This document shows, piece after piece, positions 32,914-55,471 of a DNA stretch of 64,000 nucleotides. This stretch comes from Oceanospirillaceae bacterium (GTDB taxonomy: Bacteria; Pseudomonadota; Gammaproteobacteria; Pseudomonadales; Oceanobacteraceae). The DNA lies in the NCBI GenBank assembly GCA_002724925.1, contig PBQA01000016.1, forward strand, positions 124,001-188,000, written 5' to 3'. The notes under the pieces are model-generated. The model was not told the origin of the DNA. It made no database searches and saw nothing but the letters and a program-made list of their open reading frames with translations. The first letter of the stretch is position 1. Every line of letters begins with the position of its first letter. The translations under genes were made by a program, and so were the position numbers.

Positions 32914-33627
32914 ATTAGTCCAAACAGTTCTAAGACAGCCTACGTCAAGATAAGCAAACCCTCGCTATTTAAAGCTGGCGCTGATCTTTTCTTTAACGGT
33001 ACCGAGCGCGGTGTTGCTGGTTGTGCTTCGTGCCACAGTGGCGACTTTTTCACTGACGAAGGTTTCCATAACATCGCGATGCCGCAAATCGGTGAAGGCA
33101 AAGCTAACGGCGACAACGGTCATGAAGACTTTGGCCGAATGCGCGAAACAGGTATAGAGGGCGATAAGTTTGCCTTCCGTACACCGTCATTGCTGAACGT
33201 CGAACACACAGGACCTTTCGGTCACGCCGGTGCGTACGACTCCCTTGAAGCGGTCATTCGTCACCACCTGAACCCGACTCAAGCGATTGATGACTACTTC
33301 GCTGCGGGTGGTGAATGCTCGGCTCTGGCGCAAAATGAGAGTAACGCGACCTGTGAGGACTACAGCGGTGGTTACGCGGAAGAGAATACCCGCAAGGTGC
33401 TCGCAGCACTCGAAGCGGATCAGGCCGAAGGAACGTCTCTGCTGACGAATACCGAGCTCAGCGATCGACAAGTCGGGTACCTGGTGTCCTTTCTTGAAGC
33501 GCTGACGGACCCATGCCTGGAAGACAGTGCGTGTCTGAGCCAGTGGATACCGCAAGACCTGGATGAGGAAGACGGCAATCGACTGGAAATCATTGATCAG
33601 TTTGAATCCCAACTGCTGGCCAACTAA
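32914..33627 (+). pseudogene. 5'-truncated di-heme cytochrome c peroxidase (MauG-like)
   Basis: An open frame of 237 codons begins right after a TGA at 32911 and has no plausible start or signal peptide. It encodes only the C-terminal heme half of a di-heme cytochrome c peroxidase/MauG-type protein: RGVAGCASCHSGDFFTDEGF (CxxCH heme site at 33022-33036), then FAFRTPSLLNVEHTGPFGHA and GAYDSLEAVIRHHLNP. The N-terminal heme domain and export signal, required for a periplasmic c-type cytochrome, are missing. The first Met in frame (33079) lies after the heme motif, so the native protein cannot be made. The C-terminus ends normally and keeps its terminator, which points to a 5' deletion. Confidence 0.85.
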
Positions 33628-33690: not shown

Positions 33691-34060
33691 CATTCGAACA
33701 GTCGACGTTAGTCAAATAGATCAATTAACGATTAAAATCCTGCTCGTTATTGATCGTTGTTATAGTATTTCTGTAAGAATAAGCCTCTGTTTACAGCCTG
33801 TAACAGCAGAGCGTGGCACCTCGAAACAATACTTAATCATTCTGTTGAATTTATGTAGCCAGCCCCCTCAATTACACAGCACATCACCTCTCCAGTTTTT
33901 TGACAAAGCCCCCTCTCCGTCTATCGTTTTAACCATGAGTGGCCCGAAAGGCTAATTCATTGTCTCCCAAAGGGACAATCAACTATCCACTGGCCGTGCT
34001 GCATCCCCCTCTATCGGGAGGCTAACGCTGCACTCCAATACCCGAAGCAGGATCACGAAC
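33691..34060 (+). other. Upstream region of the chemosensory operon
   Basis: A 370-base stretch without a gene. It contains a near-perfect inverted repeat at 33719-33755 (listed separately) and a polypyrimidine-rich segment. No flagellar sigma-28 promoter or sigma-54 site of good quality was seen, so I expect an ordinary promoter in this interval. Confidence 0.5.
33719..33755. promoter_or_regulatory. Inverted repeat, candidate operator of the chemosensory operon
   Basis: GATCAATTAACG and CGTTATTGATC are inverted copies differing by one extra T, separated by 14 bases. The repeat lies about 310 bases upstream of the first chemosensory gene in an otherwise unstructured AT-rich region. No T-run follows it, so it is not a terminator. 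The binding protein is unknown. Confidence 0.4.
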
Positions 34061-35974
34061 ATGGCACTTGTGAAGAAACCTCAGAACTCCAGCGCGAAAC
34101 CATCCGACACAGCGGTCGACCCCAACGTCGCAAAAGAAGCCGAAGCAAAACGACGCCGGGCGCGCACCTTGGCTAAGCAACAACAGGCAGCCGAGCGTAT
34201 CGCCGCCGCTACTGGGCAACTATCTTCGGGTATTACGGAAGCTGCCGCAGCGAGCCAGCAACTGCAGAGCGCCTCAGACCAAATTGCGGTAACGGCCGAA
34301 GAGACCAGTGGAGCAGCGCAGGAATCACTCGCCGCCTTTAACCAGGTAAACGACTCTATTTCTCTGCAATTGAGCAACGCTGAAGGCTCACGGGCTCGCT
34401 GTGAGGTACTGACAGGCGTCGTTTCAGAAACCAGTGAGAAAATCGACAGCCTGGTCGCTAACGTCCGTGAAGCTGCCAATCGCCAATCCGCATCGGTTGT
34501 AAAAGTCTCTGAGCTTGAGAAGCAGGCAGCGAACATTGGCGATATCGTAAAGGCTGTCGTGCGCATAGCTGACCAGACCAACCTGCTGGCCCTGAACGCC
34601 GCGATTGAAGCAGCCCGTGCCGGCAAGCATGGCAAAGGTTTCGCTGTGGTTGCAGATGAAGTACGAACTCTCGCCGAAACGTCAGAAACCAGTGCCAATG
34701 AAATCCAGACCCTGGTCAAACAGATTCAGCACGAAGTAAAAGGCATTGCTGAAGGAATCAAAACCTCCTCAGAGCGGGTTGAAGTCGAAGTTGAAAAGGG
34801 TCACGTAATCCGCGAACAGCTGACGGGGATTCGCCGCAATATGTCAGACATCATGGATGGCACTCAGGAAATTGCCAGCGGCGCATCACAATCCAGCGTC
34901 GCCGCAAAACAGGCGCTCAAAGGCATCGAAGATATCGCCGCCGCCGCGGAAGAGCAGTCAGCTGCGGCTGAAGAGTCCGCCAAAACCGTCAACGAACAGA
35001 GCCAGGCTCTGAGCGAGTGTGAGCGGGCTTCGCAAAGCCTCTTCGACCTGGCGGATGATCTGCGTAACTCGACTGACGTCGCTAAAAGCGCCGAAGAAGT
35101 CGCATCAAGCGCAGAAGAGCTCTCCTCTGCAGTGCAGGAAATCAGCCGGGCTTCTACGCAGATCATGACCGCGATTGAACAGATTCGCCTCGGCTCACAA
35201 ACCGCAGCTGCAGCGACGGAAGAATCCTCCGCTGCCATTAATCAGATTGAGCGTGGACTGGAAATCGCACAGGATCGCGCAACACTCAGCCAGAAGCAGA
35301 TTGCCGAAATCAAAGAATCATTGACGACAAATAAAGCGTCAGTGGATGAATTAGTACACGGCATTGACGCATCGGTCGAAGCGACACAAAACAGCATCAG
35401 ACAAGTACGCGATCTTGAAACTGTGTCGCGACGCATCGACAAAATTGTAGAAGCGATTGCAATGGTATCTATTCAGACCAACATGCTTGCAGTAAATGGT
35501 TCGATTGAAGCCGCACGTGCTGGCGAGTTTGGTAAAGGATTTGTCGTGGTTGCTACTGACATACGCAACCTGGCTCGCGACTCTGCTGAAAATGCAGACC
35601 GAATCAAAGATCTGGTTAAATCCGTGCAGGATCAGATTTTTGCCGTCGGTAGCGACCTCGATGAAATCGTTGTAGCGGCAACCGAAGAAACCGAAAAAGC
35701 GAAAACGTCGACTTCAAACCTTACGCGCATTGAGAAAGAAATCCTTATTGTCGAAACAGGCGCCGACGAGATACTCAAAGCCTCTAATGATATTTCCGCT
35801 GCAATTCTGCAGGTGAAAAACGGTTCAGAACAAATCGCTACTGCCTCAGAAGAAGCTGAAAAGGCCGCAGATGAAGCCGCGAGTGCGGCAGAACAACAAT
35901 CTCGTGGTGCCGATGAGCTCGCCTCCGCTATTGAAGAAATTGCGTCGCTTGCTGATGAACTCCAGAGCCTCTGA
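34061..35974 (+). CDS. Soluble chemoreceptor with two signalling domains (DosM-like)
   Basis: A 637-residue chemoreceptor with no transmembrane or ligand-binding domain. Two complete MCP hairpin domains lie in tandem. The first tip, at about residues 170-190, reads [20 protein letters not shown]. The second, at about 467-490, reads [20 protein letters not shown], then [19 protein letters not shown]. Both keep the Glu and Arg of the CheA/CheW contact, but the second differs at several usually invariant positions. This is the architecture of V. cholerae DosM, which stabilises cytoplasmic cluster I arrays. It starts the operon. The N-terminal 30 residues are basic and Ala-rich with no recognisable domain. 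Confidence 0.93.
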
Positions 35975-35985
35975 GGTGCAGAATT

Positions 35986-37539
35986 ATGAGCGCAGCCGAA
36001 GAAATTAATGAGCTGGATGATCTGGATAACGACGAGCGACAACAGTACGTCACCTTCCGTGTCGGCGATGAACTGTTCGCCGTAGAGATGAACCCAGTTC
36101 AGGAAATCATACGGGTTCCTGACGTTGTCCGGGTACCGCTGGCACCGCCCTCGCTGTGTGGTCTGGCAAATCTGCGAGGAAAAGTATTACCGATACTGTC
36201 ACTACGTTACCTGTTTGGCATTGCAGAGACAGAAAGTGATGAGGCAACACGAGCAGTCGTCATTGATGTCGGGCAACCCCTCGGCTTTGTCGTTGACCGG
36301 GTAGCCAGCGTTATTGATTGCGATCCTTCTCAACTGGAAGATGCATCCCAGATAAAGTCATCCGTAGATACGACTCTACTTAAAGGGGTCATCAAAAACA
36401 GTACTGCCAGCAGTATGGTGATGGTTGTCGATTTCCAGCAGCTCATCGATAACGAATTTGCGTCCCTTGATCAACTGACCAACGAAAGCAGCATGCTGTC
36501 GGATGGTTTAATCGACGACAGTATGAATCAGGAAGAAGCTGAAGAAGAAAGCGATCAGATTCAATTGGTCAGCTTTAGCGTTGATCGACAGGAGTACGCT
36601 ATTCATATCGATGACGTCAAAGAAATCGTGCAAATGCCTGAAGCGATCACCACGGTACCCAGGTCACCGCATCATATTCTCGGATTGATGAACCTGCGCG
36701 ACCAGCTACTTCCTCTGGTTGACTTGCGCACTATGTTTGCTCTGGAGGGTAAGCATCCTGACGATAAAAGCCGTGTCATTGTTGTGACATCTCACGGTTA
36801 CTTTCTGGGCATCGTTGTTGATGGTGTCAGCGAAGTTCTGCGCATAGACAAAGATACTGTTGAAGCGCTCATTCCTGCCCTGGCTAAAGAAGCCGAGCTT
36901 TCAGATATCACCGACATCTGCCGCCTGAACAATGGTGAAAGACTCGTTTCAATCCTGTCCATAGAACGCTTCTTCGATAGTGAAAACCTGCAGGAAACAA
37001 TCAGTGAGTTAGTGGAGGAAAACATGCTTGAACAGGAAAATTCGGATCACGACTACACCGACGATGATATGGAAGATGACAATCAGGTCGTGGTATTCAC
37101 ACTGAACCACGAGGAGTTTGCCGTCCCCATTACCAGCATCCAGGAAATCGTACGGATTCCGGATGAGCTCATCCGCGTACCCAAATCACCGGACTTCCTT
37201 GAGGGGGTTATCAATTTACGCGGCATTGTACTGCCGGTCGTCGACCTACGCAGGCGACTGGAGATAGAGGGTTCTGAACGCTCTGAGCGTCAGCGTATCG
37301 TTGTCTTCCTGATTCATGGTATCCGCACCGGCTTTATCGTCGATCAGGTCACAGAGGTACTTCGCCTGCCAGACGGTTGTGTTGAGCCTTCGCCAAGAAT
37401 TTCTGAGGAACACGGTGAGTTATTCTCGGGTATGGCAAATCTTCGCGACAGCAAACGCATGATCCAATTGATTGCACCTGATGCACTGATCGATGAGCAA
37501 TCAGTCGAACTGCTGGAAAATGCTGCAGGAGGTAACTGA
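35986..37539 (+). CDS. Protein of three fused CheW domains
   Basis: A 517-residue scaffold made of three tandem CheW (SH3-like) domains. Domain 1 at about 16-165 contains QQYVTFRVGDELFAVEMNPV and GLANLRGKVLPILSLRYL. Domain 2 at about 190-345 contains QLVSFSVDRQEYAIHIDDVK and GLMNLRDQLLPLVDLRTM. Domain 3 at about 365-510 contains VVFTLNHEEFAVPITSIQEI and GVINLRGIVLPVVDLRRR. The NLR and PxxDLR signatures are present in all three. Such a protein would couple receptors to CheA at three sites. Short acidic linkers join the domains. It starts 11 bases after the receptor gene. No separate single-domain CheW is present in this cluster. Confidence 0.95.
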   Translation: MSAAEEINELDDLDNDERQQYVTFRVGDELFAVEMNPVQEIIRVPDVVRVPLAPPSLCGLANLRGKVLPILSLRYLFGIAETESDEATRAVVIDVGQPLGFVVDRVASVIDCDPSQLEDASQIKSSVDTTLLKGVIKNSTASSMVMVVDFQQLIDNEFASLDQLTNESSMLSDGLIDDSMNQEEAEEESDQIQLVSFSVDRQEYAIHIDDVKEIVQMPEAITTVPRSPHHILGLMNLRDQLLPLVDLRTMFALEGKHPDDKSRVIVVTSHGYFLGIVVDGVSEVLRIDKDTVEALIPALAKEAELSDITDICRLNNGERLVSILSIERFFDSENLQETISELVEENMLEQENSDHDYTDDDMEDDNQVVVFTLNHEEFAVPITSIQEIVRIPDELIRVPKSPDFLEGVINLRGIVLPVVDLRRRLEIEGSERSERQRIVVFLIHGIRTGFIVDQVTEVLRLPDGCVEPSPRISEEHGELFSGMANLRDSKRMIQLIAPDALIDEQSVELLENAAGGN

Positions 37540-37543
37540 CACC

Positions 37544-38620
37544 ATGATAAAACTTCTGATTGTTGATGATTCTGCTCTGATGAGACGCCATTTGACACAA
37601 TTATTTGAATCAGAGGGCGACTTCACCATCCGTCACGCACGTAATGGTAACGAAGCCGTACAAATGAACCGGGATTTCCAGCCTGACGTAGTGACGCTGG
37701 ACATTAACATGCCTGAAATGGACGGTATTTCTGCTCTTTCACTGATCATGGCCGAGCGTCCGGTGCCTGTCATTATGCTGTCTTCGCTCACCCAGAAAGG
37801 CGCCCTCGCGACCTTTGAAGCCTTGAATCTTGGCGCTGTCGACTTCGTAGCGAAACCCGGCGGTACTATATCCATGTCACTGGATGATGTTGCAGCCGAT
37901 CTGATAGGTAAAGTCCGGTCTGTTACCAAGGCAAAGCTCAGACCAGGCTCTCAGGCCAAGCAGGCTCCAATACCGCGAGATACTGCCCCCAGAACCAGAG
38001 CGGCCCGACCTGCCCCCGCAGCCCAGGGCCGAGCAACAGGGGTCAAAGACAAAGTCATTCTGATCGGTGTAAGCACAGGTGGCCCCCGTACTCTGGAAGA
38101 TATTCTGCCCGCACTACCCGGTGACCTGGCCGCACCAGTGGTCATCGCCCAGCACATGCCTGCCAGCTTCACCAAGTCGTTGGCAAACAGACTTGACCGC
38201 GCCTGCCAGATGAGTGTTGAGGAGGTGGACAAAGCGACACCTCTCAGCCCCGGAACTATCTATATCGGACGAGGCAATGCCGACATCACAATTGCCATCC
38301 GTAATAGCCAGCTTTATGCCCTGAGCAAACCCGAAGATAAAGAATTCCTGTGGCATCCATCAGTCGAGCTGTTGGGTAAGTCCGCAATGCGTCACTGCGA
38401 TCCTAAAAAAGTTATGGCTATTTTACTGACAGGCATGGGTCACGACGGCTCCCGGGCTTTTGCCGAACTGCATAACAAGGGCGCGGAAACCATCGCAGAG
38501 AGTTCGGAAACTGCGATTGTATTTGGCATGCCTGCTGAATTGATTGAGCGCAGAGGTGCTGGGAAAGTACTTCCTGCTCATGCCATTGCCAATGAGATTA
38601 TCAGGTTTGCGTCACATTAA
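37544..38620 (+). CDS. cheB: Chemotaxis response regulator/methylesterase CheB
   Basis: A 358-residue two-domain enzyme that removes methyl groups from receptors. The start ATG 37544 has GCAGGAGG upstream. The receiver domain has LLIVDDSALMRRHL and the phospho-acceptor in VTLDINMPEMDG, followed by a Pro/Ala-rich linker. The methylesterase domain has GVSTGGPRTLEDIL (catalytic Ser), VIAQHMPASFT (His) and ILLTGMGHDGSRAF (Asp). The presence of CheB with CheR implies adaptation of the receptors by methylation. Confidence 0.96.
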   Translation: MIKLLIVDDSALMRRHLTQLFESEGDFTIRHARNGNEAVQMNRDFQPDVVTLDINMPEMDGISALSLIMAERPVPVIMLSSLTQKGALATFEALNLGAVDFVAKPGGTISMSLDDVAADLIGKVRSVTKAKLRPGSQAKQAPIPRDTAPRTRAARPAPAAQGRATGVKDKVILIGVSTGGPRTLEDILPALPGDLAAPVVIAQHMPASFTKSLANRLDRACQMSVEEVDKATPLSPGTIYIGRGNADITIAIRNSQLYALSKPEDKEFLWHPSVELLGKSAMRHCDPKKVMAILLTGMGHDGSRAFAELHNKGAETIAESSETAIVFGMPAELIERRGAGKVLPAHAIANEIIRFASH

Positions 38621-38632
38621 CCGGAGAGCATT

Positions 38633-39250
38633 ATGGCCTTAAAAAAATCAAACACGACAGCACCGGATGAGGCGCAATCAAGCCAACGTGACTGCAGTGA
38701 AATAAGCCAGGATCTCATTTCAGAAGATCCATCGAAACGCCGTTGGGCGGCACGCGATATTGTTTCATGCGAACACGCTTCGGTCATGTTATTGGATCAA
38801 CTGGAAGCTGAAAAAGATATCTCTGTTAAGCAGATTATCCTGAGCTCACTCACCCAGATTGGTGACACTGAAGCTGTCAACGGGCTGGTTCGCTGCTTAC
38901 GCACAGAGGATGTAAGTCTGCGAAATGAAGCCATTGAAGCCATGAAACACCTGCCTCAGGAAGTGGCATCGATTATGGCCAGCTTACTCAATGACCCTGA
39001 TCCGGATGTTCGCATCTTTGCGGTCAATATCCTCGAATCACTCTGTCATCCTGATGTCGAACAATGGCTGATCGATGTGATCCGTGACGACGAGCATATT
39101 AATGTCTGTGCCACGGCGGTTGACCTACTCGGCGAGGTCGGCAGCGAACAGTCTGAGCCTGCTCTGCAGGCCTTAAAAGAGCGATTTACCGATGAGCCTT
39201 ACATTCAATTTGCAGCAGATCTGGCGATCAAGCGAATTATTGGGAGCTGA
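38633..39250 (+). CDS. HEAT-repeat protein of the chemosensory operon
   Basis: A 205-residue all-helical protein of HEAT-type repeats, visible as repeated helix pairs: DPSKRRWAARDIVSCE, ISVKQIILSSLTQIGDTEAV, DVSLRNEAIEAMKHLPQEVA, DPDPDVRIFAVNILESLCHP and NVCATAVDLLGEVGSEQSEP. No catalytic residues are seen. A HEAT-repeat gene between CheB and CheR is also part of the V. cholerae cluster I order, as far as I recall, so it is probably a structural or adaptor component of the F9 array. The start ATG 38633 follows a GGAGAG site. Confidence 0.9.
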   Translation: MALKKSNTTAPDEAQSSQRDCSEISQDLISEDPSKRRWAARDIVSCEHASVMLLDQLEAEKDISVKQIILSSLTQIGDTEAVNGLVRCLRTEDVSLRNEAIEAMKHLPQEVASIMASLLNDPDPDVRIFAVNILESLCHPDVEQWLIDVIRDDEHINVCATAVDLLGEVGSEQSEPALQALKERFTDEPYIQFAADLAIKRIIGS

Positions 39251-39253
39251 TAC

Positions 39254-40099
39254 ATGAGCGAGCAACTCATCAGCGACCAGGAGTTTGATAAGTTCGCTGA
39301 GTTCTTTTACCGAAAGACCGGGATTAAGTTTGATAAAAGCAAACGCTACTTTGTTGATAAACGGGTTGCTGAGAGAGTGAAAGAAACTCAATCCGACTCG
39401 TTCAGGCACTATTTTACAACACTGCGTTTTCAGGCAAGTGGCGAAGAGCTTCAGAAGTTAACGAATCTTCTGACCGTCAATGAAACCTATTTCATGCGCG
39501 AAGATTATCAGTTCCGCTGTTTAATAGACTCAATGCTGCCCGATGTGATCAGCCGCCACGATCCAAACAAGCCCATCAGAATCTGGTGCATTCCTTCGTC
39601 ATCTGGCGAAGAGCCCTACTCTATCGCTATGTATCTTCTTGAAGAGTGGGATGGTATCGATAAATGGGATGTTGAGCTGATTGCCTCTGATATTGATACC
39701 AGGATTCTGGAAACGGCTAAACGTGGTATTTACTCTGAGCGATCCGTACGAAATGTACCCCCCACCTGGAAGCGACGCTATTTCCGTGATGTTACCGGAG
39801 GACAACAGGTTATCGAAGATATTCGTGATGCGGTAGAGTTCACACGTATCAATCTTTCTGAGCCAGCTGATGTCCGTAAGATGCGAAATATCGACATCAT
39901 TTTCTGCCGCAACCTGCTGATTTATTTTGATGATCTGTCACGCAAGGTCGCCGCTGAATACATGTTTGAAGCCCTGTCTCCTGGTGGCTATATCTGCCTG
40001 GGACACACAGAATCAATGGGGCGTATATCTCCACTTTATCGGGTTAAAAAGTTCCCCGCAGCCATCGTGTATCAACGACCACTGGAGGCAAAACAATGA
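39254..40099 (+). CDS. cheR: Receptor methyltransferase CheR
   Basis: A 281-residue S-adenosylmethionine-dependent glutamate methyltransferase acting on chemoreceptors. The N-terminal helical CheR domain (FYRKTGIKFDKSKRYFVDKR) is followed by the SAM domain with IRIWCIPSSSGEEPYSIAMY, ELIASDIDTRILETAKRGIY and DIIFCRNLLIYFDDLSRK. No TPR or receiver domain is fused. It starts four bases after the HEAT gene, and its stop overlaps the CheY start (ATGA). Confidence 0.95.
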   Translation: MSEQLISDQEFDKFAEFFYRKTGIKFDKSKRYFVDKRVAERVKETQSDSFRHYFTTLRFQASGEELQKLTNLLTVNETYFMREDYQFRCLIDSMLPDVISRHDPNKPIRIWCIPSSSGEEPYSIAMYLLEEWDGIDKWDVELIASDIDTRILETAKRGIYSERSVRNVPPTWKRRYFRDVTGGQQVIEDIRDAVEFTRINLSEPADVRKMRNIDIIFCRNLLIYFDDLSRKVAAEYMFEALSPGGYICLGHTESMGRISPLYRVKKFPAAIVYQRPLEAKQ

Positions 40100-40464
40100 A
40101 TGTTCTAATCGTAGATGATGCCAGCACAGTGCGTATGTATCACCGAAATGTGCTCGAGGCGGCCGGGTACGTTGTCGATGAAGCGGTCAATGGCCTAGAA
40201 GCATTGGAAAAGGCTCTGGAGAATACCTTCGACCTCTACATCGTTGATATTAATATGCCGAAAATGGACGGCTACGAGTTTCTTATGCAACTCCGATCTG
40301 AAGATATCGATCAGGCACCCGCCATTATGGTGTCGACAGAAGCGGCCGAACTGGATCACACCAAGGCGTTCACCGCAGGCGCAAATCTTTATATGGTGAA
40401 GCCCATTAAACCCCTGCAGATGATGACCTACGTTCGTCTGCTCGTGGGAGAGGAAAGCGTATGA
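40096..40464 (+). CDS. CheY-like response regulator (first copy)
   Basis: A 122-residue single-domain receiver. The acidic pair is in LIVDDAS, the phospho-acceptor Asp is residue 51 in YIVDINMPKMDG, the switch residue lies in IMVSTEAAE, and the Lys in MVKPIKPLQ. It is a probable phosphotransfer partner of the CheA encoded immediately downstream. It overlaps cheR by four bases and cheA by four bases. Confidence 0.94.
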   Translation: MNVLIVDDASTVRMYHRNVLEAAGYVVDEAVNGLEALEKALENTFDLYIVDINMPKMDGYEFLMQLRSEDIDQAPAIMVSTEAAELDHTKAFTAGANLYMVKPIKPLQMMTYVRLLVGEESV

Positions 40465-43436
40465 GTCCTTTACTACAACAATTCGTCTCGGAGACCCGCG
40501 ACCTGCTGCAAAGCATCAGTGAGCAGCTTCTGGAAGTTGAAAAAGCAGACGACAAACAAACGACGCTGAACGAACTGTTCAGAATTGTTCATACGCTTAA
40601 AGGTAATACCGGTCTGTTTGAATTTCCGGATCTGACACGTGTATTACACGCCGGTGAAGACGTTATGTCAGAGGCCAGAGAGCGGCCCGAGATATGGGAT
40701 CAGGCATTAACAGACCTGCTCTTCGAATCCATGGATTACGTCAGTAGCTTCTGCGATAGCCTTGAAGAGAATAACGGTGAGCCGACCTCCGACAGCAAAG
40801 CAGCAACACAACTTTCAAAAAATCTGAGAGCCTACCTTGACGGCAACAACTCAGAAGCAAAAGCAGAGGTTATCGATTCAGGCGCTGCTACCGAACCGAA
40901 AAAATCTAAAAAAGCAGCGACCAAAACGAAGAAAGCAACCGCGCAGAAAAAATCCGCCGGGGGGTCGTCAAAACGTCGACCTCCGCGTGCTAAAGGTCTG
41001 CCACCAGAACACAACCTGTTAAAAGATCTCCCAGCTGATACCTTGATTGAGGCTTGGAAAGCGAGCAACCCTGAAGAACCCGTCTGGCTGGTTAAATACT
41101 CTCCTTTGGCAGAGTGCTTCTTTCAGGGTGACGATCCTTTGCATACGGCACGCAGTACGCCTGGCGTACTTTGGGGCAAAGTCGAGAATGACTGTGCGAC
41201 TCAAGATATCAACGACCTCGACCCTTATCAGTGCGTCAGTACGTTTACACTGCTTAGCAGCGCCACTGAGGACGAGCTTCATGAGCACTATCGCTATGTC
41301 GCTGAGCAAACCGATATTGAAGAACTGAACAGCCATCACTTATTACTATTGAATGGCGAAGATCAGAACGATGCGCTTCCCGAAGATTCTGTTGATGCGC
41401 TCTGTGAAGCCGTTGAAGCCACGAACCTGAAGGAAGCATCCAGCATTGCTAAAACGGCACTCGAACTGCTCAATAAGGATCTGCAAGCGGCTGCCGCGCT
41501 ACGATGGGTTATCGCAATCAATAGTGATACAGATGCTCAGGAACATGAGAAAAAAGAAGCACTGATCGTTATCTGTCAGCGACTGCGACACAATCAACAC
41601 CTGAGCGGTTATCGCTTCTCAGAGCCAGAAGAAAGGGCTGAAGAGCACGCGCCTGAAGGCGACAGCCCTGACGAGGATGCTGTGTCAACTTCTGATGCGT
41701 CAGCAGGGCTACCCGATACAGACACTGAAGATTTGCTCGATACGCTTGTTGAAGATGATCGTGAAGCGTTTGAACATATTGTAAGAACTCAGGGTCGTAT
41801 TCTTGAGCTTGACCCGACCGTCGGCTGGGCCAACGGGCGCTTACGCGCCGCTTGCAATGTTCTGATGAAAACGACCACCAGCCTCAACCTGAGTACACTG
41901 ATTCCAAGCCTTGAAGAGGCTATCAGTGCTGCTCTGTCTGGCAATACAGAACCACTGGCTGACTGGATAAATGAAGTAATTCCTGGCGCCTGTAATATTG
42001 CACTGGTGAACAGCGGGAGTAACGCCTCCAACGAGGCCCCGGATACTCGTGATACCGCAATCACGGAAACAAAGGCCGACTACGAAAATACAGAGAACGC
42101 TGACGAAACAACAGACAGTGAACACGAAGAAAGTATCGTTGAAGAAACTACAGAGCAGGATACTCCAGCGCCAACTGAGTCGCCAACGACAGCAACCGCG
42201 ACAGAAGACAAGCAGGCCTCAGACAAGACACCTGCATTTAAGCCCGAACCTGCAGTAGCACCGTCGAAAAGCGTTAAAGTAGATCAGGAAAAAATCGACC
42301 GTCTTATGAACCTGATCGGCGAGATGACCGTCGCTAAGAACGCTCTTCCTTTCCTTGCTAAGCGCGCCGAAGAACAACATGGGCTGCGCGATCTCGCCCG
42401 AGAAATCAAAGAGCAGTTTGCTGTCGTAAACCGCATCGCAGAAGAAATGCAGGACTCTATCATGCAGATCCGCATGATGCCGTTTTCGTTTATTTCTATG
42501 CGCTTCCCTCGACTGGTCCGCGATATATCCCGACGACTTAATAAAGATGTTCAGTTGGTTATCGAAGGAGAAGACACCGAGGCCGACAAAAACATTATTG
42601 AGTCTCTGGCCGAGCCATTGATTCATATTGTCCGCAACAGTCTGGATCATGGCATTGAGGCGCCTGACGTGCGTAAACAGAAAGGAAAACCTGCAACCGG
42701 TAATCTGACCATACGGGCATCCCAGGAAGCCGACCGGGTGATGATCGAAATACAGGACGATGGTAAAGGTATTGACCCTGACGTTATCCGTAATAAAGCC
42801 TTTGAGAAAGGCCTGATCGACGAGGCCACTCGTCAGCGCCTGAGCGATAAAGAAGCCGTCAACCTGGTATTGATGCCAGGCTTCTCAACCGCAGACGAAG
42901 TCTCTGACTTGTCTGGGCGTGGCGTAGGCATGGATGCGGTTCGCAGTGCCGTCGACAAAGTGAACGGCACTATGGCACTCGAAAGTCAGGTTGATAAGGG
43001 TACTCGCATCCGCATATCACTGCCTATGTCGATCGCTGTGACCCGGGTCATGATCATCGAGTCAGACAACCAGCTGATGGGCATCCCAATGGATCAGGTA
43101 CTCGAAACCGTGCGTGTGCCCCGCTCCGAAATACACACGGTTAAACACGTAAAAACAACGGTACTACGGGATCGTATCGTGCCACTGAAATCACTCAATG
43201 AACTGCTGGAGCTGCCTGCCGAGCAGATCATTAATGAAGAGGAAGAACACGCGGTACTCGTAGCACGTGTGGGTAACGACGTCATCGGTCTGGTCGTCGA
43301 TGATTTCCGTGGTTCGGTCGATATTATCCAGAAACCAATGACCGGAGTTCTCTCCGGAATGCAGGCCTATTCTGGCGCAGCTTTAATTGGTGATGGCTCG
43401 GTTCTGATGGTTCTGAATCTTAAGGAGGTACTCTGA
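40461..43436 (+). CDS. cheA: Chemotaxis histidine kinase CheA, large form
   Basis: A 991-residue sensor kinase, longer than classical CheA (about 650). The HPt domain at the N-terminus has the phospho-His at residue 44 in ELFRIVHTLKGNTGLFEF. An insertion of about 500 residues follows: a basic Lys/Ala stretch (KKSKKAATKTKKATAQKKSA), a folded-looking block (PVWLVKYSPLAECFFQGDDP ... LDPYQCVSTFTLLS) and acidic linkers. The dimerisation and kinase domains then show DRLMNLIGEMTVAK, LIHIVRNSLDHGIEAPD (N box), EIQDDGKGIDPDV (G1) and SGRGVGMDAV (G2). The CheW-like domain lies at the C-terminus. No receiver is fused. Confidence 0.95.
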   Translation: MSPLLQQFVSETRDLLQSISEQLLEVEKADDKQTTLNELFRIVHTLKGNTGLFEFPDLTRVLHAGEDVMSEARERPEIWDQALTDLLFESMDYVSSFCDSLEENNGEPTSDSKAATQLSKNLRAYLDGNNSEAKAEVIDSGAATEPKKSKKAATKTKKATAQKKSAGGSSKRRPPRAKGLPPEHNLLKDLPADTLIEAWKASNPEEPVWLVKYSPLAECFFQGDDPLHTARSTPGVLWGKVENDCATQDINDLDPYQCVSTFTLLSSATEDELHEHYRYVAEQTDIEELNSHHLLLLNGEDQNDALPEDSVDALCEAVEATNLKEASSIAKTALELLNKDLQAAAALRWVIAINSDTDAQEHEKKEALIVICQRLRHNQHLSGYRFSEPEERAEEHAPEGDSPDEDAVSTSDASAGLPDTDTEDLLDTLVEDDREAFEHIVRTQGRILELDPTVGWANGRLRAACNVLMKTTTSLNLSTLIPSLEEAISAALSGNTEPLADWINEVIPGACNIALVNSGSNASNEAPDTRDTAITETKADYENTENADETTDSEHEESIVEETTEQDTPAPTESPTTATATEDKQASDKTPAFKPEPAVAPSKSVKVDQEKIDRLMNLIGEMTVAKNALPFLAKRAEEQHGLRDLAREIKEQFAVVNRIAEEMQDSIMQIRMMPFSFISMRFPRLVRDISRRLNKDVQLVIEGEDTEADKNIIESLAEPLIHIVRNSLDHGIEAPDVRKQKGKPATGNLTIRASQEADRVMIEIQDDGKGIDPDVIRNKAFEKGLIDEATRQRLSDKEAVNLVLMPGFSTADEVSDLSGRGVGMDAVRSAVDKVNGTMALESQVDKGTRIRISLPMSIAVTRVMIIESDNQLMGIPMDQVLETVRVPRSEIHTVKHVKTTVLRDRIVPLKSLNELLELPAEQIINEEEEHAVLVARVGNDVIGLVVDDFRGSVDIIQKPMTGVLSGMQAYSGAALIGDGSVLMVLNLKEVL

Positions 43437-43684
43437 TGGCTATCGACTATAGTGAAGAGAGAGCAGTACTGAAATCTTTGGTAACCATTCAGGAGGTTGA
43501 TGACTTGCAGGAGTGGCTGATAGCTCATCCGCAGGGCGAGATAGACCTTGGAGAATGCGAGCATATGCACACTGCAGCGCTACAGACCCTGACATCTGCC
43601 CGGCGTATGATCAGCGCCTGGCCATCAGATACATCGTTCAGGGGCTGGATTGAACCACTGCTGGTAAAACAGGAAGCACAGTAA
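43436..43684 (+). CDS. Small STAS-like protein
   Basis: An 82-residue protein overlapping cheA by one base and the next CheY gene by one base. The core VDDLQEWLIAHPQGEIDLGE followed by CEHMHTAALQTLTSARRMIS has the STAS-domain layout: a strand, the D/G-containing loop, then a helix starting with a small-residue motif. The usual phosphorylatable Ser is replaced by His-Thr here, so phosphorylation is uncertain. Its place after cheA matches the position of the STAS gene in cluster I of V. cholerae, as I recall it. Confidence 0.75.
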   Translation: MAIDYSEERAVLKSLVTIQEVDDLQEWLIAHPQGEIDLGECEHMHTAALQTLTSARRMISAWPSDTSFRGWIEPLLVKQEAQ

Positions 43685-44055
43685 TGAGTAAACTGATATT
43701 TGTTGTTGATGACTCTGCCACTATGCTGATGAGCGTACGTTCATCGCTTGAAATGAACGGCTTTAAAGTCGAAACCGCATCTGATGGCGTCGAAGCTCTG
43801 GATCGCCTGAACAGCATGAGCCCTGATCTGATCATCACAGATATGAACATGCCAAGAATGGGAGGTATGGAGCTGATTCAAGCGCTACGGGCTATGTCTA
43901 AATTTCGTTTTACCCCGATTCTGACACTCACAACAGAGAGCGAATCGTCAAAACGTGACCAGGCAAAACGTTTAGGAGCCACAGGCTGGTTAGTGAAACC
44001 TGTTCCCGCTATGGATCTGGCCAAAATTATTAAACAGGTACTGCCAGGCGCCTGA
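43684..44055 (+). CDS. CheY-like response regulator (second copy)
   Basis: A 123-residue receiver with [10 protein letters not shown], the phospho-acceptor Asp at residue 53 in [21 protein letters not shown] as the switch region, and [10 protein letters not shown] with the Lys. The sequence DxNMPxMxG and the KPVP loop resemble CheY rather than DNA-binding regulators. Two CheY copies in one operon suggest one output regulator and one phosphate sink. Which is which cannot be told. Confidence 0.93.
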
Positions 44056-44068
44056 GCGCGGAGGAGAT

Positions 44069-45379
44069 ATGAAACAAGATACTGATCTGATACCGCTACG
44101 TATAAGACGGAATCGTTATGCTCTACTGGGCAACACGATTGTTCCCTTTATTCTTCTGATTATCCTGCTCATAGGGCATCGCACCGTGGGAGGTATCTTT
44201 TCAGATATTCTGGATGCAAGCCTCATTGGAGGCGCACTGTTTCTGTCTTTTCTGACGTTTACCATCATTCACTTTAACCGCATCTGGGTAAAGTCGTTTG
44301 TCGCTCGTATGACAGGTGACGAAGCACCACGGCGCGAAAGTAACTTTGATGAAGCAGAGCCCATGATGGTGCTGTCGGCCGCTGAAAAACAAATGCTGGC
44401 TGATCTGCGTAACGTACTGATCAGCTTCAGTCCGATTGCTGCCCTGTTCAATGCACACTTAAGCAAAACGAACGAAGTCACCGAAGAAGCAGCCACCACC
44501 ATTATGGAACGTCTGATGTCCATTAATGATCGCTCGCAGATGTTTCTCCAGACTCTGAATATGGGTAAATCCGAAGCAGACGACATCAGCGAAAATGCTC
44601 ATAGCATTATAAAACGCAGCCAGGAGCTGCTCAGTGAAATGACCCGCTACCGTGAAATTCATGAGCAACAGCGAGGGAAAGAAGAACAAGCTATTCGTGA
44701 CGTGGTCACCCAGGTTGAAAGCTTCAAGCCCCTGATCGGTCTGATCCGGGACGTGACCAAGCAAACGAACCTTCTGGCATTAAACGCCGCCATAGAGGCC
44801 GCCCGTGCCGGAGAAGCAGGACGAGGCTTTGCTGTTGTTGCCGACGAGGTGCGTACGCTGTCTATGCAGATTGAAGATGCCGCAGGAAAAATCGAAGACA
44901 GTGTTCTTCAGGTCTCGAATACCGTTGAAGGTCAACTGAAAGAAATGGCAGTCAGTAGCGAGAAAACCGCGGATGAAATGAATTGGCTGGCTAATATCAC
45001 TGACGCAGTTTCCTCTATTTCGAGAGACTTCGAGCAGGCAGTAGGGGCATTAGATCACTTATCCGGAAACACCGAAGAAGCGATTAATCTGGTTCGTAAC
45101 TCCGTGATGGACGTATTAAGTGAGTCCCAATTTCAGGATGTGTCAAGACAACAGATTGAACACGTCCAGCATGGTCTTGAATTGCTTGAAGAACGCTTTC
45201 GTCTTCTCAGTCAGGCAGTGGCTGGTGAAATTGATCATCCACTACTCGACCTCAGTGATGTTACAGAAGCATTGAAGAAAATTTATACCATGCAGGTTCA
45301 GGCGGATACTCATCAGTCGGTCGTGACTGGTGAAGCGACTGAAACCAAAGACGAGCGCCCATCCATCGAACTGTTCTGA
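44069..45379 (+). CDS. Short chemoreceptor with two membrane helices and no HAMP
   Basis: A 436-residue receptor. Two adjacent hydrophobic helices (about 20-38 and 48-68: [40 protein letters not shown]) leave almost no periplasmic domain and no HAMP. The cytosolic part begins with a helical linker and has the tip [20 protein letters not shown], then [19 protein letters not shown]. The C-terminal region is polar, with no CheR tether. It may sense membrane or cytosolic cues. It is the tenth gene of the operon and stands where VC1394-type receptors stand in V. cholerae, from memory. Confidence 0.92.
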
Positions 45380-45395
45380 GAAAGGTAATCACGAC

Positions 45396-46163
45396 ATGGC
45401 TGTCCGGATCGCGATCTGTAACCGTAAGGGAGGCACAGGAAAGTCGACGGTATCGGTGAATCTGGCAGCGGGGTTGGCAGAGCATGGATTCCGGGTACTG
45501 ATTATTGACCTCGATTCACAATCTCACTGTGCTGCTGGGCTTGGTATTAAGCCTTCCGCCCCATTTATTCATGACATCTTCGGTGGCAATCCCGAAGCAC
45601 TTAATGAATCCATCGTGCTGAGTGATTATCCAGGCTTATGGCTATCCCCTGCCAACCCTACATTTGATCACCACTCTGCAGGTGAAAATCAACTTCAGCT
45701 GAAAGAAGCACTGCACCAGAGCAATATCGATGAGCGATTTGATGTCGTTCTGTTGGACACGCCCCCATCGCAAGATCAGCTATTAATGAATGCTTTAATG
45801 GCAGCCGATTGGGTCGTTGTACCGTTTGTCCCGCACTTTCTCTCGTATCAGGGAATTAAGCAGCTGGTCAGGCTGATGCACTCGGTGAAGCTAAGCAACA
45901 ACCCAAGGCTCCAGCTGGCTGGCTTTCTGCCTACCATGGCCAGCAAAACTATGAAGCACCATAAAGCGGTGATGGAAGAAGTAAGTCGACACTTTGGCCG
46001 CGACCGGATATTACCCGCCATACGAACTGACATACGACTTGCTGACGCATTCAGTAAAGGTCAGCCAGTCATTGGCTTCGCACCAAAATCACGGGCGGCG
46101 GAGGATTTCTCGGTACTGAGTCAGTGTATTGGTGAACGGCTATCGGAGCGTGAGCACGCCTGA
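45396..46163 (+). CDS. ParA-family ATPase linked to the chemosensory operon
   Basis: A 255-residue ParA/MinD-type ATPase. The start ATG 45396 lies behind GAGAAAGG, giving MAVRIAICNRKGGTGKSTVS with the deviant Walker A (KGGTGKST). Then come VLIIDLDSQSHCAAGLGI (Walker A' Asp) and VVLLDTPPSQDQLLMNALMA (Walker B). It is the last gene of the cluster, 16 bases after the receptor. ParA-like ATPases such as ParC position chemosensory arrays in Vibrio, and PpfA positions cytoplasmic ones in Rhodobacter, so array segregation is the likely role. Its 3' end overlaps the convergent GGDEF-EAL gene by 24 bases. Confidence 0.9.
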   Translation: MAVRIAICNRKGGTGKSTVSVNLAAGLAEHGFRVLIIDLDSQSHCAAGLGIKPSAPFIHDIFGGNPEALNESIVLSDYPGLWLSPANPTFDHHSAGENQLQLKEALHQSNIDERFDVVLLDTPPSQDQLLMNALMAADWVVVPFVPHFLSYQGIKQLVRLMHSVKLSNNPRLQLAGFLPTMASKTMKHHKAVMEEVSRHFGRDRILPAIRTDIRLADAFSKGQPVIGFAPKSRAAEDFSVLSQCIGERLSEREHA

Positions 46164-48227
46164 CTGATCCGAAATTGACGTGGCGAAATTAGCCTTGAGC
46201 TGTTCGAGCTCCTGAGGACGGTCAAACAGATAGCCCTGCATCAGGTTACAGCCATGGATCTTCAAAAAGTCGCGCTGTGCTTCAGTTTCTACACCCTCAG
46301 CGCACAGTTCTATCCCCAGACGCTTGGCCATCTCAATAATGGTCAAAACCAATGCATCATCACGGGCTGTTACGCCGATGTTCTCAACAAACTGCTTATC
46401 AATCTTGATCAGATCGATAGGAATACGAGTCAGGTAACTGAGCGACGAATATCCCGTACCGAAGTCATCTAACGCGACGCGACAACCAAGTCCGCTGATG
46501 TCATTGAAGAATCGGTTCGCCATCTCAAGATTATCGAGATACGCATGCTCCGTCACTTCGAACTCGATCAATTCAGGACGAACAGCATAAGTATCAAAGG
46601 TACTGCGGATAAAATCAGAAAACTGGTAGCGTTTAAGGTCGTAAGCCGACAAGTTAAGAGAGACCAATATAGGAACAGGAAGGTCCTGAAAGTAATCCGC
46701 AACGTCGCGGCAAACACGCTCAACAACCCAGTCGGTCAGCGCGGAAATCTTGCCTGAGCGTTCAGCAATAGGAACAAAATCTGATGGCGACACACTACCA
46801 AGCGAATGGCTGTTCCAACGCACCAGTGCCTCGACCCCCCGGGGTTCACCATCGCTGCTGACCTTGGGTTGATAACAGATATAAAACTCACCACGCTCCA
46901 GGCCCGGCTCAATGGCATTGGCAATGTCAATTTTACGCTGATGCTCAATGAGCATATGTTCCTGGAAGAAGCAGTACTGAGACTTACCCTCTTTTTTGGC
47001 AACGTACATAGCGACATCGGCATTGCGTATGGTGTCTTGCGTATCAAACCCACCTTCAGAGGCCCGTGCTATGCCGACGCTGGCGCTGATCCGGACTTCC
47101 CAAGAATCAATCAGGAACGTAGCTCTGAGGCCACTGACAATATCCTCAGCCATGCTCTCCGGATGATCCGGAGAAGTACGGCATAAAACGAGGAATTCAT
47201 CACCTCCATGACGACTGACCACGTCTTCTCTCGGGATGTAAGACTTCAATCTTTTTGCTACCTCAACCAGCAGCTTGTCACCGACTTCGTGGCCCAGTGT
47301 ATCGTTGACCTCCTTAAAACCATCCAGGTCAACAAACATAACAACAAGGTCGCCTTCACCACTATCGCGCAATTCACGCAGTGCAGCGTCGAGAATGCCC
47401 ATAAAGCTCTGACGGTTTAGCAGGCGTGTCAGGCTGTCGTAGTTCGCCAGGTATTCCATTTCTTCCCGGCGCTGCTCCAGAAGCTCGACATATTCCTGAT
47501 TAATATCGGACTCAACCCGGATCGCGTCCATCATATTATTGATATCCTGCGTTAGCGAAGACACCTCGTACTTACCGTACACCGGGATTTTCAAACGATA
47601 ATCTTTGGTTTCCTGAACTTTTCTCGCAAACTCAGATAGCTGAGTTAAAGGCCACAACCAACGACTGGCCTGAACATAAAACAGCCCGACCATAATGAGA
47701 ATTACCGCAATGGCGACCGGAAGAATGCGTAATGCCAGGCTGATAGTGCTGGAAAGTAGTGGTCCTTCCAGGTCAACGATCAGAGCCAGGTGCCCCATCA
47801 CCAACGGGGGTTCACCAATGCGCCGGACCGCAATCAGGCGACCATCATCACGTAAGACCCCGGATTCGAAGAACTTCCAATCCGTGAAATCAACCGGAAA
47901 GTCGCCCTGACTCTCAAGCATGGCCTGACCAGCATACAGTTCAAGTACATTCCACTGAGGATCAAAGATGGCAGCCCCGACAACATTTTCATAAGGCTCA
48001 AGACTGAGGAGATAGCGTTTCAGATCAAAGAAGTGATCTGACTTACTGAGAATACCGACCAGGTCGCTGGCCATATTGTCAGAGAGTGCGCGCAAGTCGC
48101 TTTCAACGTAACGGGTGTAAAGCTCCCTGTGCTCGCGCAGGGCAGAATAAAATACAGACGTAGCTACCAATGCAATCGAGATAAGACTCAATAGCATTAC
48201 AGCGGTTCTGATGCTTCTAATCAGCAT
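46140..48227 (-). CDS. GGDEF-EAL protein (diguanylate cyclase/c-di-GMP phosphodiesterase)
   Basis: A 695-residue inner-membrane protein. TM1 at about residues 8-28 is followed by a periplasmic sensor of about 130 residues, TM2 at about 165-185 (LPVAIAVILIMVGLFYV), and a HAMP-like linker (WPLTQLSEFARKVQ). The GGDEF domain has RHGGDEF at residues 339-345, so it can be active, and the EAL domain has EALVRWN at 466 with DDFGTGYSSLSYL, EGVET and the metal ligands. Whether both activities are present cannot be read. It is convergent with parA, overlapping by 24 bases, and divergent from the porin gene across a 246-base gap. Confidence 0.94.
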   Translation of the reverse strand: MLIRSIRTAVMLLSLISIALVATSVFYSALREHRELYTRYVESDLRALSDNMASDLVGILSKSDHFFDLKRYLLSLEPYENVVGAAIFDPQWNVLELYAGQAMLESQGDFPVDFTDWKFFESGVLRDDGRLIAVRRIGEPPLVMGHLALIVDLEGPLLSSTISLALRILPVAIAVILIMVGLFYVQASRWLWPLTQLSEFARKVQETKDYRLKIPVYGKYEVSSLTQDINNMMDAIRVESDINQEYVELLEQRREEMEYLANYDSLTRLLNRQSFMGILDAALRELRDSGEGDLVVMFVDLDGFKEVNDTLGHEVGDKLLVEVAKRLKSYIPREDVVSRHGGDEFLVLCRTSPDHPESMAEDIVSGLRATFLIDSWEVRISASVGIARASEGGFDTQDTIRNADVAMYVAKKEGKSQYCFFQEHMLIEHQRKIDIANAIEPGLERGEFYICYQPKVSSDGEPRGVEALVRWNSHSLGSVSPSDFVPIAERSGKISALTDWVVERVCRDVADYFQDLPVPILVSLNLSAYDLKRYQFSDFIRSTFDTYAVRPELIEFEVTEHAYLDNLEMANRFFNDISGLGCRVALDDFGTGYSSLSYLTRIPIDLIKIDKQFVENIGVTARDDALVLTIIEMAKRLGIELCAEGVETEAQRDFLKIHGCNLMQGYLFDRPQELEQLKANFATSISDQSGVLTLR

Positions 48228-50338: not shown

Positions 50339-51010
50339 ATGCCAGCGACACAACCACATTCGTCATCCGGTCTGAGCCACCCTCTCGACCAGGCTCTGAA
50401 CAAAGGGCTGGTATGGCAAGCTGCTCAGCAGCCCTGTAGCAGTGCCAGAGTCATCTCCTCGGGTTATCAGCAGCTGAACCGTGAACTGCCTCAAGGGGGC
50501 TGGCAGGCTGGCCAGGTGTGTGAAATCTACCCTCACAAGTATGGATGCGGTGATATGCATATTCTGCTGCCCGTGCTGGCGACGTTAAGCCATCAACAGC
50601 AGTGGATCATGATGGTAGCCCCTCCTGCGATTCCTTACGCGCCAGCCCTGACCATGGCAGGGATCGATACCCGACGGCTGTTGATGGTGCATCCCAAAGA
50701 TCGTAAGGAGGCACTCTGGTGTGTCGAAGAAGGGCTGCGCTCTGGTCACTGTAGCGCGGTTCTGGGATGGCTCCCCGAATCAGACCCTAACAGCATTCGC
50801 AGAATTCAGCTGGCCTGTGAAGCGAACCAGAACTTCTGTTGGTTATGGCCCGATTCCAGATACCAGAACAGCACCTCAGCAGCGCCATTGAGACTTCAGG
50901 TCAACCGGATCTCAGCAGAGCTGGCAGGTCTGCGCTTTATCAAACGCCGTGGGCGCTGGCCTGGTGATGCTTTTTCACTGTCACTGAACAGCGCAACCAG
51001 CACAGGTTGA
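50339..51010 (+). CDS. imuA: ImuA, SOS mutagenesis protein
   Basis: A 223-residue SulA/RecA-like protein of the ImuA family, the first gene of the imuA-imuB-dnaE2 translesion cassette. It begins with a variable region; GGWQAGQVCEIYPHKYGCGD and MHILLPVLATLSHQQQWIMM follow, with WMMVAPP-like strands typical of the RecA fold but without a convincing Walker A. RRLLMVHPKDRKEALWCVEE and CSAVLGWLPESDPNSIRRIQ are typical ImuA segments. It is expected to act with ImuB at stalled forks. LexA boxes precede it. Confidence 0.92.
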   Translation: MPATQPHSSSGLSHPLDQALNKGLVWQAAQQPCSSARVISSGYQQLNRELPQGGWQAGQVCEIYPHKYGCGDMHILLPVLATLSHQQQWIMMVAPPAIPYAPALTMAGIDTRRLLMVHPKDRKEALWCVEEGLRSGHCSAVLGWLPESDPNSIRRIQLACEANQNFCWLWPDSRYQNSTSAAPLRLQVNRISAELAGLRFIKRRGRWPGDAFSLSLNSATSTG

Positions 51011-51014
51011 GCCA

Positions 51015-52409: not shown

Positions 52410-52420
52410 ACGAATACCCC

Positions 52421-55400: not shown

Positions 55401-55471
55401 TTGCATACCGGCTGCTCGACCTGAGTGGTTCACTGGAGCGACTGAAAGTTCAGTCGCATGATTTCCACTGA
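52421..55471 (+). CDS. dnaE2: Error-prone DNA polymerase DnaE2
   Basis: A 1016-residue C-family polymerase for damage-induced mutagenesis. The start is ATG 52421, giving MTTPYAELHCLSNFTFLRGA; a GTG-type longer frame from 52382 is less likely. The PHP domain (ALALTDECSLAGVVCAHRAI) is followed by the catalytic region MCQGRGSAANSVVCYCLFLT and PPDIDIDFESQRREEVIQYI. Conserved DnaE2 traits include GFPRHLSQHVGGFVIAEGCL and GFGEYGFPESHAASFALLVY. The C-terminal OB fold is SYISGIVTCRQRPGTSAGVT. It is smaller than DnaE1 because the tau-binding tail is missing. Confidence 0.96.
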   Translation: MTTPYAELHCLSNFTFLRGASHPEELVQQAADLGYRALALTDECSLAGVVCAHRAIKEENLPLKLIIGSEFHHDSGLYVVLVTGRAAYAELSTFITQCRRQAEKGHYTFDPAKLISLQHCLLLWLPAEQCMLPQLALLIRHFQQRLWLLGERTLDEFDVHHYIDIARWAEIFDLPVVAASNVHMHHPSRHSLQDCLTAIRMNQPVHQIKHRLYANAERHLRSLKKLSHLYPEHWLQESIIIAEKCTFNLDEISYLYPTDSVPDGLCAREYLKDLVEKGEAIRFPDGTPQSIQQIIDKELRLIAQKKYEHYFVTLYDIVQFARSKNIMCQGRGSAANSVVCYCLFLTEVNPQEVQLLFERFISEERHEPPDIDIDFESQRREEVIQYIYQKYGRERAALAATVIRYRPRSALRDVAKALGVSTAEQDRIVARYAGRYHGSEWMDHVYPDTDQSPLTQRLRSLTQDILGFPRHLSQHVGGFVIAEGCLHELVPVENASMKERTVIQWDKDDLETLGLMKVDILGLGMMTAIRRSLNHLGMQISDIPREDPATYKMLQKADSVGVFQVESRAQMNMLPRLKPACYYDLVVQVSIVRPGPIHGDMVHPYLKRRNGQEAADYPLPELRPILERTHGVPLFQEQVIAFAMVAADFTASEADQLRRSMASWRKKGHMHRLQNRLRENMLKNGFSEAYIERIQRQLEGFGEYGFPESHAASFALLVYLTAWLKCHHPGVFLAALLNSQPMGFYSPAQLINDARHHQVVVHPVDVNHSHWDHEALPDGSVRLGLRLVKGMNQDAALRLINARPDTGYKTISDCTQASLLNRKEREALASSGAFGALSEHRYHARWQAAEPQNISYQPDLLAPLAMPDEWTLDAPNEVDNLLEDYQSLGVTLGRHPMEVLREQGLLGNSVTAEGLKQLKHGDESYISGIVTCRQRPGTSAGVTFITLEDETGCSNIVVWLATAKRQLDTLIHARLLQVYGKVEQDPESGITHMIAYRLLDLSGSLERLKVQSHDFH

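Follow-up and report, generated by a model that had tools for sequence, protein, structure and literature searches.

The chemosensory arrays of class F9 are purely cytoplasmic, which raises the question of how they are placed in the cell and inherited at division. The locus described here lies in a window of 64,000 nucleotides (the whole stretch analysed, bases 124001-188000 of contig 10, PBQA01000016.1) from the 3.97-Mb genome of an Oceanospirillaceae bacterium (assembly GCA_002724925.1). Examination of positions 34061-46163 of the window revealed eleven plus-strand genes encoding, in this order, the soluble receptor DosM, the coupling protein CheW3, CheB, a HEAT-repeat protein (hereafter HEAT), CheR, CheY, CheA, a STAS-fold protein, a second CheY, a membrane receptor and a ParA ATPase. 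The explanation that we favour, with a probability of slightly under one half (about 0.47), is that the F9 array is positioned by this ParA by way of a short N-terminal tag on HEAT. That ParA has a role in array positioning at all is likely.

Clusters of class F9 are marked by a receptor with two signalling domains (DosM) and by a CheW made of three domains (PMC9321776, PMC7534058). Both markers are present in the window cluster together with a full set of CheA, CheB, CheR and CheY recognised by Pfam. In a tree of CheA P3-P5 regions (117 rows, duplicates and some long branches included), the 113 rows from F9-type clusters were set apart from the CheA of E. coli and from the three further CheAs that this genome encodes, with a Shimodaira-Hasegawa-like approximate likelihood ratio test (SH-aLRT) value of 92; most F classes are without a reference row in this tree, and its F9 rows are defined by their clusters and not by a labelled V. 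cholerae CheA. We take the E. coli CheA to be of class F7, and the other CheAs of this genome to be F6-like, Aer2-type and ChpA. Neither DosM nor CheW3 was seen in 10 of the 111 loci with a CheA, the fetched stretch being too short there. Since both markers are present and CheA falls with the F9-type CheAs, the window holds a complete cytoplasmic chemosensory cluster of class F9, from a species of Thalassolituus. The nearest relative of its CheA is the one from Thalassolituus maritimus DSM 24913 (99% identity over P3-P5).

A preliminary description, made from the letters of this DNA alone, had already assigned the cluster to F9 and had proposed CheA phylogeny and a gene-order search across genomes as checks. 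The assignment is borne out by the two markers and the CheA placement, the window CheA grouping with 112 other CheAs from F9-type clusters, and F9 clusters do recur across genomes, many of them with a ParA. The same description took the triple CheW and the added ParA for changes particular to this cluster, and on both counts it has to be revised. The triple CheW was rejected as a novelty, as together with DosM it is the canonical published signature of F9 (PMC9321776, PMC7534058). ParA recurs in F9 clusters: 56 of 117 loci carry it, in last, internal or first position.

The window ParA belongs to the ParA family by its deviant Walker A motif KGGTGKS and its match to Pfam AAA_31 (2.9e-34); its nearest solved structure by sequence profile is 1wcv, a segregation protein. 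In a comparison with 56 further ParAs (Soj-, ParC- and FlhG-like) from genomes that carry F9, a single branch separated the F9 ParAs from all the others in 97% of 200 bootstrap trees. The motif NRKGG occurs in 48/48 F9 ParAs outside the Deferribacterota and in 0/56 of the other ParAs; it is also found in both ParAs of plasmid-borne F9 clusters. Six Deferribacterota ParAs lie inside the F9 branch with N-termini cut by the fetched stretch, so that the motif is unreadable in them. The presence of ParA near che genes is already known; searches of open-licence papers did not turn up the F9-specific branch or its diagnostic motif. The words ParA, HEAT and STAS are absent from the main text of PMC9321776.

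An F9-type ParA is absent from 33 of the 117 loci, and 28 loci were left unlabelled (duplicates, contig ends). Labels were assigned by hand, and locus L146, whose ParA match has a stop within it, was counted among the loci with ParA. The 33 ParA-absent loci lie in 32 genomes, each of which was searched whole, some being drafts of unstated completeness; part of this search used one query protein, which a very divergent F9 ParA could escape. Scores were cleanly split in one set of these searches (at least 346 bits versus at most 185), and the best ParA matches taken as loci from the ParA-absent genomes all fall in the other branch. Where present, the gene stands at the end of the cluster, between the genes for CheA and the second CheY, or ahead of that for DosM. 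ParA stays associated with F9 although its position in the cluster differs.

DosM and HEAT, which are unrelated in fold, begin alike, with Met, Ala, one or two hydrophobic residues and two lysines followed by a variable linker. DosM usually starts with M-A-[LI]-[VI]-K-K or M-A-L-K-K, before a linker rich in Ser, Thr and Ala, and HEAT with M-[AGP]-[FLI]-[IV]-K, often with a second K. The strict pattern was matched by 70/86 DosMs and 47/96 HEAT proteins, and by 1/728 control open reading frames (ORFs) of the same loci, the controls being mechanically called plus-strand ORFs with a Shine-Dalgarno-like start, other operon genes included. Position entropy in DosM is 0.4-1.5 bits at residues 2-6 and at least 2.9 beyond. 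Synonymous codons vary within the DosM tag (GCA 22, GCG 22, GCT 19 and GCC 13 in 80 starts). The dibasic N-terminus of HEAT is predicted to be disordered, residues 1-17 having an AlphaFold predicted local distance difference test score (pLDDT) under 50, and is followed by the HEAT solenoid. The tag shared by DosM and HEAT, as read from the aligned protein starts, appears to be new here. Other receptors of this genome were also considered as carriers and rejected: none of the N-termini listed for them shows the tag (22 matches, read from first possible start codons; L066 had no readable frame).

The HEAT tag is linked to ParA. Two adjacent basic residues at HEAT positions 2-8 were found in 38/47 proteins from clusters with ParA versus 7/32 without (Fisher 2e-7). 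The first sign of this link came from loci up to L111, where the HEAT tags of ParA-less genomes often had a single lysine. Loci seen before the idea gave 34/40 with ParA versus 6/15 without, and loci fetched after it 4/7 versus 1/17 (p 0.015). Because the loci are related, trait models were fitted on a tree of CheA, CheR, CheW3 and CheB, and the dependent model was preferred over the independent one (likelihood ratio 24.1, 4 degrees of freedom, p 7e-5), with a fitted rate of ParA loss of 5.7 without the dibasic tag versus 0.24 with it, and gain of ParA solely where the tag is present. Among independent sister pairs, 10 were for the link, 2 against and 7 equal (two-sided sign test about 0.04). 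The link thus survives correction for the tree, less strongly in sister pairs. It agrees under five definitions of the tag and under clustering at 90, 80 and 70% identity (at 70%, 14/15 versus 3/12, p 0.0008), which removes the effect of the near-duplicates L047/L048, L025/L059 and L012/L013 kept in the raw count. With six plasmid clusters added, the counts become 40/49 versus 10/36. For DosM, a dibasic tag was present in 38/39 proteins with ParA versus 26/32 without (trait model p 0.35; sister pairs 1 for, 0 against, 16 equal).

Some choices bear on these counts. Neither the HEAT nor the DosM test includes the six Deferribacterota loci; L004, L028 and L030 (ParA present) gave no HEAT start. 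In L164 (ParA absent) the start is unresolved, the letters ALRKK lying near the expected position without a start codon, and this locus may be a counterexample. After the idea had arisen, the HEAT start was chosen manually in 13 loci (two of which are duplicates) and the DosM start in one, and for M. currus a start upstream of the annotated one was used.

In the mechanism that we propose, the F9 cytoplasmic array would consist of two base plates of CheA and CheW3 with rods of DosM as spacers between them, with adaptation by CheR and CheB and two CheY outputs. The ParA encoded by the last gene of the operon is of a subfamily dedicated to F9 arrays, and its ATP-bound form would be expected to coat the nucleoid, by analogy with Rhodobacter sphaeroides, where PpfA is associated with the chromosome and brings about segregation of the cytoplasmic array (PMC3964821, in the parts of the cited papers covered, as for the known systems below). 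HEAT would be attached to the array and have a disordered tail, whose dibasic tag contacts ParA and leads to ATP hydrolysis, and arrays would move over the nucleoid and be shared between daughter cells. Partner proteins of ParA and MinD commonly activate through a short, positively charged, disordered N-terminus, and TlpT, the suggested activator of PpfA, has such an N-terminus (PMC7993993, PMC10241942). HEAT is the best activator candidate because its second basic residue follows ParA; by analogy with such partners, HEAT as ParA activator is the leading but unproven reading, held at a shade less than even odds. The DosM tail alone was rejected as the main activator, since the DosM tag barely depends on ParA. 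More tentatively, the whole may be a dedicated F9 partition machine made of the ParA subfamily, a HEAT adaptor with an activator tag and DosM with a twin tag, in which two unrelated proteins would compete for or jointly engage one site and the adaptor half would decay on ParA loss.

Several observations weigh against positioning through the HEAT tag. No F9-type ParA was found in the 32 genomes that hold the 33 ParA-absent loci, so the array is not always in need of ParA. Where ParA is missing, most HEAT tags still have the hydrophobic residues and one Lys or Arg. Since a core with a single lysine is mostly retained there, in DosM as in HEAT, the tag probably serves another purpose too, one that does not involve ParA. 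The presence of ParA also makes little difference to the DosM tag. Exceptions occur in both directions: 9/47 ParA-bearing clusters are without a dibasic HEAT tag, the six Deferribacterota clusters have ParA and no HEAT tag was seen in them, and 3/4 of the added ParA-less plasmid clusters still have a dibasic HEAT tag (the ParA label there being limited to the fetched stretch). Finally, the sister-pair test is weak taken alone.

A rival explanation is that the shared tag is a docking peptide for a common array partner such as CheW3, CheA or STAS, with ParA positioning arrays through another contact and the link between HEAT and ParA being indirect. The persistence of the tag core in genomes without F9 ParA, the independence of the DosM tag from ParA and a frequency far above background (1/728) all speak for this explanation, which we consider unlikely on balance, as it makes no prediction of why adjacent basic residues follow ParA in HEAT and hardly in DosM.

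A direct contact with DNA is improbable. The basic N-terminus of DosM, made of the tag and a conserved stretch of 16 residues, would here bind DNA as does the positively charged N-terminal tail of FrzCD, which binds the nucleoid (PMC5716589), and ParA would be an optional addition. The basic stretch is indeed present with and without ParA; however, positions 3-4 keep their hydrophobic residues under varying codons, and plain DNA binding would have no need of such residues, and the link between HEAT and ParA would be left unexplained. It is more improbable still that ParA places the arrays at the cell pole through a landmark, in the manner of Vibrio ParC/HubP, and not along the nucleoid: ParC-type ParAs do serve chemotaxis arrays, and a ParC-like one is encoded beside the F6-like cluster of this genome, but the F9 ParAs branch apart from it (L087) and the window operon has no ParP-like gene (the search for ParP covering this operon alone among F9 loci). 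Very improbable is a mere boost of translation initiation by an Ala second codon and A-rich Lys codons, both common at the starts of highly expressed genes, as synonymous codons vary freely, the hydrophobic residues at positions 3-4 are kept, the pattern is present in just 1/728 other ORFs, and such a boost would not follow ParA.

If positioning by ParA through the HEAT tag is true, ParA cargo systems gain a new member, whose adaptor is of a new kind. Searches of open-licence papers gave no published role for the HEAT protein encoded in F9 clusters, and the shared tag and its link with ParA point to a specific lysine pair in HEAT. Such a system would also offer a handle on F9 function, namely array-free daughter cells obtained without touching the signalling genes.

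The features of the locus are listed in Table 1. All eleven genes lie on the same strand with intergenic gaps of -4 to +16 bases, four junctions overlapping by one or four bases, which confirms the operon and the gene order read earlier; two of the starts given then were amended, those of CheB (37544) and ParA (45396). Pfam matches follow this order (two signalling domains of methyl-accepting chemotaxis proteins (MCP), three CheW, CheB, HEAT, CheR, CheY, CheA with HPt, dimerisation, ATPase and CheW domains, CheY, MCP and ParA), the gene between those of CheA and the second CheY being without a match. The name STAS given to its product is nonetheless right, because RsbV, a STAS protein, is the nearest Foldseek match of its AlphaFold model (pLDDT 91; Foldseek E 3.5e-4). 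Near-invariant Cys and His residues (C41, H43, H45) were seen in this protein, presumably near the site of the phosphorylated Ser/Thr of classical STAS proteins. The two tip motifs of DosM (34607-35524 in the window) are exactly 300 residues apart in 78/78 ORFs in which both matched (102 ORFs sampled, duplicates included), as expected of a rigid spacer. A promoter scan of the region gave 5 sites, fewer than in shuffled sequences (mean 12.4), and no Rfam match came near the gathering score for an RNA element upstream of DosM.

Table 1. Coordinates (positions in the window) and evidence for the features of the F9 locus.
Feature	Coordinates	Strand	Evidence
Possible promoter TTGACA-16-TATCGT	33900..33927	+	Weak evidence; similar pair upstream of DosM in three Thalassolituus relatives
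DosM, soluble receptor, two signalling tips, N-terminal tag MALVKK	34061..35974	+	Two Pfam MCPsignal stretches; no hydrophobic segment
DosM tag codons M-A-L-V-K-K	34061..34078	+	Position entropy; synonymous codon variation
CheW3, three concatenated CheW domains, F9 signature coupling protein	35986..37539	+	Three Pfam CheW stretches
CheB methylesterase with receiver domain	37544..38620	+	Pfam; start from ribosome-binding site and 4-base gap
HEAT-repeat protein, predicted disordered tail MALKKSNTT, proposed ParA adaptor/activator	38633..39250	+	Pfam HEAT_2; AlphaFold; tag covaries with ParA
HEAT tag codons M-A-L-K-K	38633..38647	+	Alignment
CheR methyltransferase	39254..40099	+	Pfam
CheY receiver 1, acceptor Asp present	40096..40464	+	Pfam; sequence
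CheA kinase, 991 aa, about 500 residues separating HPt from dimerisation domain	40461..43436	+	Pfam; tree
Small STAS-fold protein, 82 residues	43436..43684	+	AlphaFold and Foldseek; no Pfam or NCBIfam match
CheY receiver 2, acceptor Asp present	43684..44055	+	Pfam; sequence
Membrane receptor, two N-terminal hydrophobic segments, no large sensor domain	44069..45379	+	Pfam; hydropathy
F9-type ParA ATPase, Walker motif NRKGGTGKS	45396..46163	+	Pfam AAA_31 2.9e-34; alignment; tree and signature

The distribution of CheW3 is patchy, even inside the genus. At a threshold of E 1e-80 or better, and with the centre genomes included, CheW3 was found in 10/369 genomes of the class, 7/44 of the family and 4/9 of the genus, in 10/246 genomes of the Alteromonas-containing family and 2/325 of its order, in 12/161 genomes of the Methylotuvimicrobium-containing order and in 22/392 of the Janthinobacterium-containing family; an extra search, which reached only 4 genomes, gave a match in 2. 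A total of 49 CheW3 proteins of 503-625 residues, that of the window included, was collected. CheW3 is also carried by 13 plasmid records, and whole F9 clusters (L208-L213) lie on large plasmids of Methylosinus, Eleftheria, Sphaerotilus, Methylobacterium and Azospirillum.

The absence of flagellar genes nearby, remarked on earlier, agrees with our scan, in which none of 20 window proteins (part of the window ORFs) matched a flagellar family. The cluster may serve something other than swimming, as was put forward then. Another contig of the same genome carries flagellar genes with their own CheA, CheZ, ParC-like ParA and ParP-like protein, a cluster that we take to be F6-like, and a further chemosensory cluster with CheD is presumably Aer2-type. 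No shared output gene was found beside F9 clusters among the 101 of 154 picked flanking ORFs that were scanned; their commonest families were Response_reg (14), HATPase_c (13), PAS (13), GGDEF (5) and EAL (5). In the window, a GGDEF-EAL gene (46140-48227, minus strand) converges on parA with an overlap of 24 bases. In T. maritimus, too, the gene after the F9 cluster is of the GGDEF-EAL kind (L001:15755-17872), a 56% identical one is found in Oceanobacter (L010:15421-17559), and L002 and L003 have convergent ORFs of similar size. Directly upstream of the operon, a gene remnant (33079-33627, plus strand) matches residues 327-544 of a T. maritimus neighbour (L001:1536-3167) with 84% identity; di-haem cytochrome c peroxidase, the family matched by two of the neighbour ORFs scanned, is the likely, unconfirmed family of the remnant. 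Farther away (50339-55471, plus strand), SulA/RecA-like, IMS-family and DNA polymerase III alpha-type genes stand in a row that resembles an imuA-imuB-dnaE2 mutagenesis cassette.

Among known systems, cluster I of Vibrio cholerae (F9; DosM VC1403, CheW3 VC1402, CheA VC1397) resembles the present one in its DosM of two signalling domains, its triple CheW, an array that is purely cytoplasmic and, among the genes of the cluster, one for a membrane receptor (VC1394); in contrast to the window cluster, no ParA, HEAT or STAS is named in the parts of its descriptions covered (PMC7534058, PMC9321776). The identity of the two clusters rests on these literature descriptions and not on sequence comparison. 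CheOp3 of R. sphaeroides is presumably not an F9 cluster. As here, its ParA, PpfA, is encoded with a cytoplasmic array, and TlpT is a soluble receptor with a basic N-terminus (PMC3964821, PMC7993993); the suggested activator there is the receptor, whereas here it is HEAT that tracks ParA, PpfA being likened by description. Homologues of PpfA were reported in che operons of 77/206 species, ParA without ParB being noted there as widespread; in the parts covered, that survey does not treat the F classes separately and mentions no partner peptide, while the F9 ParAs described here form their own branch with its own motif (PMC2829493). Vibrio ParC/ParP is likewise a ParA-like ATPase system for chemosensory arrays, but it works through a pole anchor (PMC10241942, PMC5706961), and the ParC-like ParA found by the F6-like cluster of this genome branches apart from the F9 ParAs. 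FrzCD of Myxococcus xanthus shares with DosM a cytoplasmic location and a positively charged N-terminal tail, and differs in that this tail binds DNA directly (PMC5716589).

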